Virus record (IMG/VR): IMGVR_UViG_3300020159_002420
Coordinates: 1-47,524 of that record
Strand: one strand, 5' to 3'
Length of the DNA: 47,524 bases
Origin: a virus
Shown: positions 5,499-39,738 of the stretch, one piece after another
Layout: the number at the start of each line of letters is the position of its first letter
Position numbering within the stretch: position 1 is the first letter of the stretch
Position numbers and translations under genes: made by a program
The notes under the pieces: model-generated
The model's database searches: none
What the model was told of the DNA's origin: nothing
What the model saw: only the letters and a program-made list of their open reading frames with translations

Positions 5499-5759
5499 AT
5501 GAAAATTAAAGTAATTAAAAATGCTTACTATGTAAGTGAAGATTTAACAAACATTGGTATGGTCAGTCAAGATGAATTTGAAGCCAGTTTTTCACATTTA
5601 TTAGTTGTAGGTGATGTTTGGGAAAAAATTAAAGATGAAGAAGGTAATTTTGTAGATGATATTTTTACATGTATTGAAGGTAAATGGGAAGAAGAAAAAA
5701 ATGATGGTTGGTGGGATTATGAAGATGTAATAGATTATTTTGAAGTAATTGAAAATTAA
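5499..5759 (+). CDS. small acidic hypothetical protein (86 aa)
   Basis: Begins MKIKVIKNAYYVSEDL with likely beta strands; the C-terminal half is rich in Trp and acidic residues (GKWEEEKNDGWWDYEDV). Monocistronic between two composite promoter hairpins. Function unknown. Confidence 0.7.
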   Translation: MKIKVIKNAYYVSEDLTNIGMVSQDEFEASFSHLLVVGDVWEKIKDEEGNFVDDIFTCIEGKWEEEKNDGWWDYEDVIDYFEVIEN

Positions 5760-5772
5760 AATTATATTTTGC

Positions 5773-8701: not shown

Positions 8702-8917
8702 ATGAAAAACATTTACTTAATCTTCGTAGACATAAACGATGTATCTAACTACTGTAAAATTGAATGTGAAAGAAAAGACTTTATTAACTCATTAATTGAG
8801 AATGAATTGATTGAAAGTAAGGATGATATAAAAAACTTAAGTTGGATAATATTTGAAAATGGAAATATGATAAATTTTTCTAATTTTTGGTTCTTTTTAA
8901 TAAATAAAATAGAATAA
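8702..8917 (+). CDS. hypothetical protein lacking Ala/Pro/Thr/His/Gln (71 aa)
   Basis: MKNIYLIFVDINDVSNYCK... contains none of the five amino acids whose codons always need a C. The first ~25 codons still use C-ending codons, and C becomes rare toward the 3' end. The start at 8702 follows a composite promoter. Function unknown. First of four consecutive genes that avoid C-requiring amino acids. Confidence 0.75.
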   Translation: MKNIYLIFVDINDVSNYCKIECERKDFINSLIENELIESKDDIKNLSWIIFENGNMINFSNFWFFLINKIE

Positions 8918-8924
8918 TTAATGT

Positions 8925-8959
8925 GTACGAGGGTAGTCAAAGCTATCCTCGTACATTTA
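8925..8959 (+). promoter_or_regulatory. composite terminator-promoter hairpin, covariant
   Basis: GTACGAGGGTAGT (8925-8937) and GCTATCCTCGTAC (8942-8954) around CAAA. Both arms differ from the 4289 family yet still pair. -33 TAGTCAA 8934-8940, -7 8952-8959. Confidence 0.75.
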
Positions 8960-8979
8960 ATTAAACAAAAATATAAAAT

Positions 8980-9177
8980 ATGGAATTAAGAGAAATTAAA
9001 GATTTAAGTGGTGAAAAATTAAGATTTAGTGAGTTTAAGGAGTATGTAGAAGATTATTATAAGAATAATAAGGAGTATGGAATAAAGAAGAGTAGTAGGT
9101 ATTTTAAAGAAATAAAGTATTGTTATTTTAATTTAGAAGAAGGTTATAAAAAATATTGTTTATGTTTTGAATATTAA
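8980..9177 (+). CDS. cytosine-free gene, basic/acidic small protein (65 aa)
   Basis: The coding strand has no C at all in 198 nt. The protein therefore has no Ala, Pro, Thr, His or Gln and consists mainly of Lys, Glu, Tyr, Phe and Ser (ends YCLCFEY). All Leu are TTA/TTG, all Arg AGA/AGG and all Ser AGT. It has its own promoter and leader, so it is a real transcription unit. Function unknown. Confidence 0.7.
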   Translation: MELREIKDLSGEKLRFSEFKEYVEDYYKNNKEYGIKKSSRYFKEIKYCYFNLEEGYKKYCLCFEY

Positions 9178-9210
9178 ATTAATTTATATATTAATAAATT
9201 AAATTATAAA

Positions 9211-9236
9211 TAGGCAAAATAAAAATATTATATTTA
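9211..9236 (+). promoter_or_regulatory. early-type promoter, C-poor variant
   Basis: TAGGCAA 9211-9217 and TATATTTA 9229-9236. The only C between 8967 and 9660 is the one in this -33 box. Confidence 0.6.
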
Positions 9237-9258
9237 TATAAATAAAAAAATAAAAATT

Positions 9259-9648
9259 ATGAAAAAAGTATTATTAAGTGATTGGTTTAAATTTATGTTA
9301 GAAAATGAATTAAATGAAGAGTTGATGTGTGGATTAGGTGAAAAGAAAAAGAATTATATTAGTTTATGTAATGAATTTTGGAAATTGGAAGGTGAAGATA
9401 GAGATATTATGTTAGAAGATTTAAAGAAAGATGAGGGTATATTATATAAGAAAATGGTTGAATGGAATAAAAATGAATTATTAATAGAATTAGATATGAA
9501 TATGGTGTGGTGGGAATATAGTTTAGAAGATTATTTTAGAGATATGTTTAGTAAAAATAATGATGATAATGATGAATTTAGTTTATTTGAATTAAAAGAT
9601 ATTAATAAGATGATGTATGGAGAAGATTATGATGATGAAGATTATTAA
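9259..9648 (+). CDS. cytosine-free gene, acidic protein (129 aa)
   Basis: 390 nt of coding strand contain no C. The protein lacks Ala, Pro, Thr, His and Gln and ends in an acidic tail (GEDYDDEDY). It is Met/Trp/Leu-rich and predicted helical (MKKVLLSDWFKFMLENELNEE). No frameshift or stop interrupts the frame, which argues for a maintained gene. Function unknown; acidic composition and early timing would suit an inhibitor. Confidence 0.75.
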   Translation: MKKVLLSDWFKFMLENELNEELMCGLGEKKKNYISLCNEFWKLEGEDRDIMLEDLKKDEGILYKKMVEWNKNELLIELDMNMVWWEYSLEDYFRDMFSKNNDDNDEFSLFELKDINKMMYGEDYDDEDY

Positions 9649-9656
9649 TTTATAAA

Positions 9657-9682
9657 TAGTCAAAATTAATTATGTATATTTA
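9657..9682 (+). promoter_or_regulatory. early-type promoter
   Basis: TAGTCAA 9657-9663 and TATATTTA 9675-9682. C9661 in the -33 box is the first C after 445 C-free bases. Confidence 0.65.
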
Positions 9683-9705
9683 ATTAAACAAAAAAATAAA
9701 AAAAT

Positions 9706-9825
9706 ATGGGAAATTTAAGAAATGTTAGTAAATGGTTAATTTTAGGAGTAATTGTATTAGATGTTTTAATTGTAATGAGTGGGATTTATTTATATAATCA
9801 TTTTAGTATATGTTTTATTAAATAA
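9706..9825 (+). CDS. tiny single-pass membrane protein (39 aa), one C only
   Basis: MGNLRNVSKWLILGVIVLDV starts a single hydrophobic helix (residues ~9-30). Its only C is in the sole His codon. It has a promoter, a leader and a terminator (9836-9867). Function unknown; a membrane-active early peptide is possible. Confidence 0.65.
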   Translation: MGNLRNVSKWLILGVIVLDVLIVMSGIYLYNHFSICFIK

Positions 9826-9835
9826 ATTTAATATT

Positions 9836-9867
9836 AAACTCCCTATTAATTTAGGGAGTTTTTTTAT
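9836..9867 (+). terminator. intrinsic terminator
   Basis: AAACTCCCT (9836-9844) and AGGGAGTTT (9853-9861) form a perfect 9-bp stem, followed by a T-run. It marks the end of the C-poor stretch. Confidence 0.85.
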
Positions 9868-10629: not shown

Positions 10630-10655
10630 AGAGGATAACAGATACCCGTTCCTCG

Positions 10656-10704
10656 GATCCCATCACCCACTAGCTTACGGAGCTGCTGGCTGGTGGGATC
10701 TTTT
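10656..10704 (+). terminator. terminator ending the early region
   Basis: GATCCCA (10656-10662) and TGGGATC (10694-10700) close a stem-loop that ends in TTTT; further pairing is possible inside. Confidence 0.6.
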
Positions 10705-10717
10705 AATCGTAGGCCTC

Positions 10718-10802
10718 GTGCCCGCAAAAAAGAATGCCGGAAGCTTTATGCCCGCAAAAAGGATGCCGGAGGCTCCATACCCGCAAAAAGAACATCTGGT
10801 GT
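10718..10802 (+). repeat. three imperfect ~29-bp direct repeats
   Basis: Units begin at 10718, 10748 and 10777. Each contains CCCGCAAAAA, then a GATGCCGG-like block (AATGCCGG, GATGCCGG, AACATCTGG). Spacing 30 and 29 bp. Confidence 0.7.
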
Positions 10803-10807
10803 CGGGT

Positions 10808-10836
10808 CGCTATCGATCGTGTGCGGCCCGATAGCG
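10808..10836 (+). repeat. perfect 8-bp inverted repeat
   Basis: CGCTATCG (10808-10815) and CGATAGCG (10829-10836) with a 13-nt spacer, in the GC-rich island. Confidence 0.6.
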
Positions 10837-11068
10837 GGGTGTGTGCGATCTGTCCCCACGTGAGCCGCGATCCATCGACGGGGCGCTGTCGGTACAAAAA
10901 AACTGCGACCAATTCTCAACACGCATATAATCTTTAACCATCGATTGTATATACTAATATACTATCCTAAAATCAACTATCAAATTTCGGATTAACCCAT
11001 TTTGCCAATTTTTTATAAAGAGCCAAATTTAAGTTTTATAATATTTTTTATATCGATAAAAGTATATA

Positions 11069-27526: not shown

Positions 27527-28348
27527 ATGAATCCATATAAATTCTTTGAATTTTTAGAACAAAAAGAAAACAGACAAATACCAATTAGATTTAAATTTTT
27601 AAAAGACCCAAATTATCAAATTACTCAAAAAGAGGCAAATGATAATCTTGATTTAAGTAATACCCCAATAACATCACTACCACCTGGTCTAACATTTGGG
27701 GGTTATCTTAATTTAAATAATATACCAATCACATCTCTACCCCCAAACCTAAGTGTAGGAGGTGATCTTGATTTAGGCGGTACACCAATCACATCCCTAC
27801 CTCCAAACCTAAGTGTAGGAGGTGGTCTTAATTTAAATTATACACCAATCACATCCCTACCTTCGGACCTAAGTGTAAGAGGTGGTCTTTATTTAAATAA
27901 TACACCAATCACATCCCTACCTCCAAACCTAAGTGTAGAAGGTGATCTTGATTTACACAATTGTAAAAATTTAACATCCCTACCCCCAAACCTAAGTGTA
28001 GAAGGTTATCTTAATTTAGGCGGTACACCAATCACATCCCTACCTCCAAACCTAAGTGTAGGAGGTGATCTTAATTTACACAATTGTAAAAATTTAACAT
28101 CCCTACCTCCAAACCTAAGTGTAAAAGGTTATCTTTATTTATACAATTGTAAAAATTTAACATCCCTACCTCCAAACCTAAGTGTAAAAGGTGGTCTTGA
28201 TTTACGCAATGCACCAATCACATCCCTACCTTCGGACCTAAGTGTAAGAGGTAGTCTTTATTTAAATAATACCCCGCTATCTAAATCACATACAAAAGAC
28301 CAAATAAAACAGATGGCTCCTGGTGTTAAAGGAAATATTTATATATAA
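27527..28348 (+). CDS. leucine-rich-repeat protein (273 aa)
   Basis: Residues ~1-40 form a leader (MNPYKFFEFLEQKENRQIP). Then come ten 20-21-residue repeats of the pattern TPITSLPPNLSVGGDLDLxx; four have a Cys-Lys-Asn variant (NCKNLTSLPP). Repeats are near-identical at DNA level, so copy number can change by recombination. The first 56 nt are identical to the gene at 47041. LRR solenoids bind proteins; the target is unknown. The N-terminus may be a packaging tag. Confidence 0.8.
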   Translation: MNPYKFFEFLEQKENRQIPIRFKFLKDPNYQITQKEANDNLDLSNTPITSLPPGLTFGGYLNLNNIPITSLPPNLSVGGDLDLGGTPITSLPPNLSVGGGLNLNYTPITSLPSDLSVRGGLYLNNTPITSLPPNLSVEGDLDLHNCKNLTSLPPNLSVEGYLNLGGTPITSLPPNLSVGGDLNLHNCKNLTSLPPNLSVKGYLYLYNCKNLTSLPPNLSVKGGLDLRNAPITSLPSDLSVRGSLYLNNTPLSKSHTKDQIKQMAPGVKGNIYI

Positions 28349-39372: not shown

Positions 39373-39738
39373 ATGAAATTAATAAAAGAAGCTAAACGCT
39401 GGCAGAAATTAGCGGGTATATTAACAGAAGCTGATGAAGAAAGTACTACTCCTGAAACTCCGGCTGGTACTATCAGCAAAGAACAAGCTAAACAATTAAT
39501 TAGAAATACTAATGGTAAGTTCTTTACTGCAACTTTTATTAAAAAAGATGGTACAACACGTGTAATGAATGCTCGTTTAGGTGTTAAAGCGTATCTAAAA
39601 GGTGGTGAATTACCTTATGATCCTGAATCAAAAGGATTAATACCTGTATTTGATGTAAAAACAGGAGACTACAGAATGATAAATATAAATACTCTTACTA
39701 ATCTAAAAATAGGTAGTAATACTTATAATATACAATAA
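39373..39738 (+). CDS. tagged SH3-like barrel protein (121 aa)
   Basis: Tag at residues 5-20 (KEAKRWQKLAGILTEADEES) with LTE-A as a protease-like site. Residues ~45-115: FFTATFIKKDGTTRVMNARL, GVKAYLKGGELPYD, LIPVFDVKTGDYRMINI, a known small SH3-barrel type in Bacteroidota phages. The barrel alone, without tag, would be a normal early protein. Overlaps the next start by 1 nt. Confidence 0.7.
   Translation: MKLIKEAKRWQKLAGILTEADEESTTPETPAGTISKEQAKQLIRNTNGKFFTATFIKKDGTTRVMNARLGVKAYLKGGELPYDPESKGLIPVFDVKTGDYRMININTLTNLKIGSNTYNIQ

Follow-up and report, generated by a model that had tools for sequence, protein, structure and literature searches.

Why should a stretch of protein-coding phage DNA be nearly devoid of cytosine on its coding strand and keep its guanine? 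The window considered here, a whole stretch of 47,524 nucleotides (IMG/VR virus record IMGVR_UViG_3300020159_002420), raises this question between positions 8967 and 9838, where the plus strand holds 396 A, 4 C, 154 G and 318 T in 872 nt. The G share of the block is 17.7%, which is normal, and a background of 13.5% C would give about 118 C where 4 are seen (binomial log10 P = -47.7). Runs of 445, 248 and 109 nt without C, all inside the block, are the longest in the window; elsewhere such runs reach at most 103 nt, and G-free runs do not exceed 50 nt anywhere. A C-free run of 175 nt after an ATG occurs 13 times in the window, always within the block, and in none of 100 dinucleotide shuffles. 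The sequence-only reading of this DNA had counted four C by eye, and the recount returns exactly C9215, C9661, C9689 and C9799. They also lie where that reading had placed them, with 9215 and 9661 in -33-like boxes, 9689 in a leader near the expected start site and 9799 in the sole His codon of a 39-aa ORF. Its statement that random AT-richness cannot produce such a block is borne out by the probability for this block alone, together with the normal G. Elsewhere in the window, C makes up 4.3% of an 86-aa gene at 5499-5771, which has runs of 103 and 72 nt without it; this C-poor gene is perhaps an intermediate.

The block contains three small genes, each behind its own putative promoter (Table 1). 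The promoter motif ahead of the first gene also precedes other small genes in the window, and TATATTTA, found ahead of the second and third genes, is the C-free version of the TACATTTA of the first. The block ends, as had been claimed, at a terminator.

Table 1. Features of the C-free island and its borders in the window
Feature	Position	Strand	Details
Promoter region of C-free gene 1	8936..8966	+	Inferred from motifs, putative start site; GTCA (-33-like) at 8936-8939, TACATTTA (-7-like) at 8952-8959, last C at 8966
C-free island	8967..9838	+	4 C in 872 nt, G 154
C-free gene 1, 65 aa, family F1	8980..9177	+	0 C
Putative promoter of gene 2	9210..9236	+	AGGCAAA with the lone C9215; TATATTTA at 9229-9236; motif-based
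C-free gene 2, 129 aa, family F2, net charge -18	9259..9648	+	0 C
Putative promoter of gene 3	9658..9689	+	AGTCAAA with C9661; TATATTTA at 9675-9682; C9689 near the expected start; motif-based
Gene 3, 39 aa, hydrophobic peptide, family F3	9706..9825	+	1 C (C9799, His codon)
Intrinsic terminator	9836..9861	+	First C past the last ORF (9839) in the 5' arm; checked by program

Just downstream of the C-free island, in a genome of otherwise 30% GC, lies an intergenic block that is rich in GC and in palindromes (window 10640-10900, and 8860-9130 of the related locus L009). Similar GC-rich blocks with CCGCCGGC motifs follow the islands of loci L065 and L077; such blocks might serve as an origin, as a packaging site or as a decoy. 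The window has other features of its own. A leucine-rich-repeat-like protein built of ITSLPPNLSVGGDLNL repeat units is encoded at 27527-28348, and different ORFs at 39373, 41385, 41942 and other places begin with a nearly identical, MKKQILSEEFRRMQKLAG-like N-terminal stretch. ORFs of a related phage, G001 (locus L019), at 1338, 2016 and 4214 likewise have the near-common N-terminus FDLKRFLIENKMTRNSRLLNE, so that in both phages these ORFs look as if they shared a targeting or propeptide segment.

The C-free state is not peculiar to the window. A profile of the HD gene that lies downstream of the island was used to fetch 80 related loci (811 kb). A C-free run of at least 150 nt is present upstream of the HD gene in 6 of the 29 loci that have at least 3 kb of upstream sequence, and none of that length occurs in 548 kb downstream of this gene; G-free runs of at least 150 nt are absent from the upstream regions of the same 29 loci. 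The census contributed the islands of L065, L077, L102 and L123, as well as a 202-nt C-free run over two tiny ORFs in L090, and the total over the related phages is ten islands, of which the one in the cultured phage immuto_2-6A is weaker. The feature thus recurs in contigs of metagenomes that are independent of each other and, less strongly, in a phage in culture; the island contigs other than those of phage G004 and immuto_2-6A are fragments. The same genomic place holds different C-free genes in different phages, and in this group of phages a single accessory region contains the islands. The earlier picture of a single block was therefore right as far as it went and too modest, since related phages have the C-free state as well. 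Two further observations concern single loci. In L102, an extra C-free ORF of about 83 aa with a GTG start lies between two C-free genes at about 1695-1948, outside the tabulated set described below. The two tiny C-free ORFs of L090 (278-479) encode hydrophobic peptides of about 25 and 23 residues, which resemble the 39-aa peptide of the window.

The phages with islands are tailed phages related to Immutovirus, as they share a conserved tail protein and a region of small genes ahead of the HD gene and a baseplate module. Flavobacterium phage vB_FspM_immuto_2-6A (Immutovirus; NC_055915.1) is the closest cultured relative by tail protein, with 63-70% identity, and the HD genes of the window, G004 and this phage are 40-46% identical. 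In the corresponding small-gene region, the immuto_2-6A gene gp143 has 5 C in 354 nt, by far the lowest C content in that genome, where the next gene has 5.6%. Unlike the window genes, gp143 is C-poor rather than C-free; it is annotated as hypothetical, and no search made gave a match between its product and the window proteins.

Although the genes at this place differ, several belong to families whose members can be compared. F2 relatives are present in two other IMG/VR phages, with 60% and 56-58% amino acid identity and 0 C each, and all three F2 proteins are without Ala, Pro, Thr, His and Gln. In the second of these phages, the F2 gene adjoins an unrelated 137-aa C-free gene (F4), which has a relative of 76% identity in a third phage. 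This F4 relative lies inside 1574 nt with 3 C, each of them in a promoter-like TTCTTT(A/T)TTATATTTA ahead of a gene. All four F4 members have 0 C at 27-77% amino acid identity. A scan of 2.9 million IMG/VR contigs with an anchored pattern and a C-free tail matched the two F4 contigs only; a second anchored pattern added three contigs and with them one further phage, which at the same place has a different C-free gene (F8, 86 aa), preceded by a terminator and a promoter like those of the other islands. No other ORF of at least 40 aa with less than 5% C is found in the 122-kb contig of the F8 phage. Since these scans used anchored patterns, the abundance obtained is a lower bound. Homologues with a normal C content, which the sequence-only reading had named as counter-evidence, were sought, and the opposite was found, as the homologues are C-free or very C-poor; the highest C content among them is that of an F8 gene, 6 C in 309 nt, and profile searches with F4 and F6 gave none of normal C content. 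In 84,980 bacterial and archaeal genomes there is neither an F2 relative nor a C-free run behind AAATTATGAAAAAA.

The tabulated set comprises 20 genes in 11 families, with 17 C in 6510 coding nucleotides (0.26%, compared with about 14% ordinarily). Synonymous NNT and NNC codons are chosen in a ratio of 1006:1, against a 5-20% share of the C-ending codons in the window's normal genes; the log10 P of -70.7 for this bias is no strict probability because the sequences are partly related. Codons for Ala, His, Pro, Gln and Thr are nearly absent. Pairs of homologues show many A/G, A/T and G/T differences and hardly any T/C. In some relatives, C-poor genes of 0.5-3% C form a continuum, which fits graded selection yet blurs the boundary of the class. 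For the proteins scanned, Pfam, PHROGs and PDB sequences gave no family at a meaningful score, the PADLOC defence library gave no match, and tblastn against 50,697 phages found no informative relative. The AlphaFold models of F2 and F4 are poor (pLDDT 50 and 55).

The borders of the islands are informative as to the level at which C is avoided. Eight islands, 7486 nt in total, have 26 C, and 23 of these fall in the 1894 nt of non-coding DNA, nearly all, as judged by eye, in terminator hairpins or promoter boxes. The median distance from the ATG to the nearest upstream C is 55 nt, compared with 9 in 221 control ORFs. In 9 of 10 islands, the first C past the last ORF sits in a terminator-like hairpin, often in its 3' arm; the terminator was checked by program in the window, the hairpins of the other islands were judged by eye, and start sites were placed from motifs. 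Non-coding transcribed DNA can be entirely without C, as in G001, where 222 nt around the C-free gene have 0 C and 23 G. The promoter of gp143 in immuto_2-6A keeps the C of its -7 element and has lost a C near the start site that its sister promoters have. Since the residual C are found mostly at promoters and in terminator hairpins, and since immuto_2-6A retains the -7 C and drops the one at the start site, the constraint tracks the transcript, approximately from the start site to the terminator. In L102, L123 and L077, the C just upstream of the -7 element is also missing, with TTCGTATATT changed to TTTGTATATT. A separate observation is a tRNA-like element (GGTGGCGGAATGG...GGTTCGAATCC) just before the island terminator in L010 (about 523-620) and L031 (about 795-890); ARAGORN and Rfam make no call on it, and it is perhaps a degenerate tRNA or a tRNA mimic.

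Several processes could in principle remove C from one strand. These phages are AT-rich, but chance, AT-richness or a sequencing artefact is hardly conceivable as the cause in view of the probability of the window's block, its normal G, and the recurrence of the feature in independent metagenomes and, more weakly, in a cultured phage. Chronic strand-specific mutation, in which deamination of the exposed non-template strand of transcribed DNA strips C and the proteins adapt, agrees with a loss that affects one strand and spans transcribed DNA, and at some promoters C has indeed given way to T close to the upstream border of the melted region. The substitution pattern is a different matter. Codon position 2 gains 14 points of A and only 4 of T (11 genes), and Ile and Val stay far below a C>T-converted control, without the near-doubling expected. 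The amino acid composition has an L1 distance of 0.407 from this control and of 0.274 from a simple loss of Ala, His, Pro, Gln and Thr. Among nine aligned pairs with a C codon in one homologue, one fits C to T, and C is retained in the stems of transcribed terminators and, within the islands, in -33 boxes. Gln, His, Pro, Ala and Thr are almost gone, yet the frames stay open. A C-to-T hypermutated locus would show replacement by T at all codon positions, homologues of normal C content differing by C>T, and loss of functional C, none of which is seen here; thus hypermutation of the APOBEC type or another C-to-U type resembles the islands in its one-strand loss of C and departs from them in substitution spectrum, codon-position pattern, intact frames and terminator C. 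Because position 2 gains A, Ile and Val do not double, only one pair in nine fits C>T and terminator C persists, selection against C in the message is the better reading; a mutational process is improbable as the source of the pattern, and a chronic one with full compensation is unlikely. Strand-specific deamination, which the sequence-only reading had offered beside selection for C-free mRNA, is accordingly disfavoured, and the selection branch gains from the persistence of C-freeness down to 27% amino acid identity and in unrelated genes at the same place, and from its extent, which is approximately that from start site to terminator. The object of selection might be weakly folded messages, resistant to RNase III or Rho through their want of G-C pairs and of C for Rho, and C-free mRNAs do fold about half as strongly per nucleotide as their neighbours. 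They do not, however, fold more weakly than their own dinucleotide shuffles (z from -1.7 to +1.1 in 11 of 12 genes, -4.0 in one), G is not reduced, and such graded pressures are not expected to remove the last C at the cost of five amino acids, so folding is quite improbable as the cause. Since no other dinucleotide is depleted to a degree comparable with C, and folding is not below that of the shuffles, what is avoided is C as such and not structure. Translation during destruction of the tRNAs that read C-containing codons would account for the near absence of Ala, His, Pro, Gln and Thr codons, but untranslated leaders and 3' regions are C-free too (the 222 nt of G001 among them), and tRNAs with G34 are still required for the NNT codons in use; as the non-coding parts are C-free, codons, tRNAs and amino acids are not the cause, and this explanation has very little probability. 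Avoidance of palindromic restriction sites was also considered and dropped, since it needs only the loss of motifs and not the removal of every C.

A coding strand without C is also a template strand without G, and the effect could lie there, if G that is modified to a 7-deazaguanine, or made abasic by a glycosylase, stalled RNA polymerase. This would predict the same strand asymmetry and the same limits at the transcribed region. All three of the largest genomes searched (G004, G010 and immuto_2-6A) encode QueC and a DpdA homologue; in G004 (L035-L041) these are accompanied by a QueE-like radical SAM protein, and in immuto_2-6A by annotated QueD, QueE, FolE and QueF. The window record and the other island contigs, all of them fragments, have no QueC or DpdA match. 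Because the relatives carry QueC and DpdA, guanine in their DNA is probably modified to a 7-deazaguanine derivative, as these pathway genes predict. The likeness to the DpdA/Que modification systems (Hutinet 2019, PMC6884629) lies in these genes; such modification is a property of the whole DNA, whereas the cytosine desert is specific to one strand and to certain genes. The polymerases on which DNA replication depends are reported to be unimpeded by 7-deazaguanines (PMC6884629), and a published link between this modification and base-free coding strands was not found in the literature searched. Since all the remaining genes of these phages have G in their template strand and presumably are transcribed nevertheless, and since G010 has the pathway yet no strict C-free island in the stretch examined, a template effect is fairly unlikely, though less so than a mutational origin; the 7-deazaguanine genes of the relatives keep it a live alternative.

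The explanation that we favour, and consider rather probable, is that protein-coding transcription units of these phages are under strong and long-lasting selection for cytidine-free transcripts, from about the start site to the terminator, and that they carry accessory, probably counter-defence, genes expressed while C in RNA is penalized. Small genes of this kind would need to be expressed under conditions in which C in RNA is nearly fatal to the message. The cell might have run short of CTP or contain a chain terminator such as ddhCTP in its place, or an RNase might be cutting specifically at C. Transcripts free of C could still be completed, or survive, under such conditions, and the protein made from them would lift the block. 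The polymerase would not meet a C until the terminator, past the ORF, where stopping or cutting would be harmless. Since Ala, His, Pro, Gln and Thr are given up and this is maintained over deep divergence, every single C must carry a very heavy penalty. As the agent, a C-specific RNase and the poisoning or depletion of CTP have about equal odds. A counter-defence role is probable, and it is the location and the variability (gene turnover) of the genes that point to it; different C-free genes at one place are what is expected of an accessory, defence-related site. The genes are small, and the phage promoters ahead of them are of ordinary appearance. Against selection for cytidine-free transcripts, it must be said that all other genes of the phages contain C and must be expressed too, and that a purely transcript-level constraint does not require that C be lost upstream of the -7 element. 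The analysis linked no defence system, RNase or viperin to these phages or their hosts, and the literature searched offers no natural agent, nucleotide analogues excepted, with the single-base stringency needed. The prokaryotic viperins (pVips) resemble such an agent in that chain termination by ddhCTP would penalize every C in a transcript, as the pattern demands; however, they are reported to produce ddhGTP and ddhUTP as well (PMC12926258), which a C-free message does not evade, and viperin as the agent is speculation.

A more specific version of selection for cytidine-free transcripts may be entertained tentatively. The islands would be a message channel of three letters (A, G and U). Small genes that can replace one another at a single locus would have transcripts wholly without C and would be expressed while immunity directed at CTP, or an RNase specific for C, silences every ordinary gene; the agent would be an undescribed defence or phage weapon that acts on each cytidine of RNA. 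No precedent emerged from literature searches on phage genes without cytosine and on defence directed at CTP, and no natural class of genes without one base in the whole message appears in the literature searched. Phages of Flavobacterium-like bacteria keep a few small genes with C-free mRNA, and the recurrence of this state in divergent relatives, in about a dozen different genes, points to strong selection for messages that stay functional when RNA cytidine is blocked or attacked. The C-free signature is in itself a means to find such genes by sequence, and the cultured relative immuto_2-6A, which grows on a Flavobacterium strain, makes the question testable. For the biology of these phages, the pattern points to an undescribed force that acts on RNA cytidine, or on template guanine, during infection.
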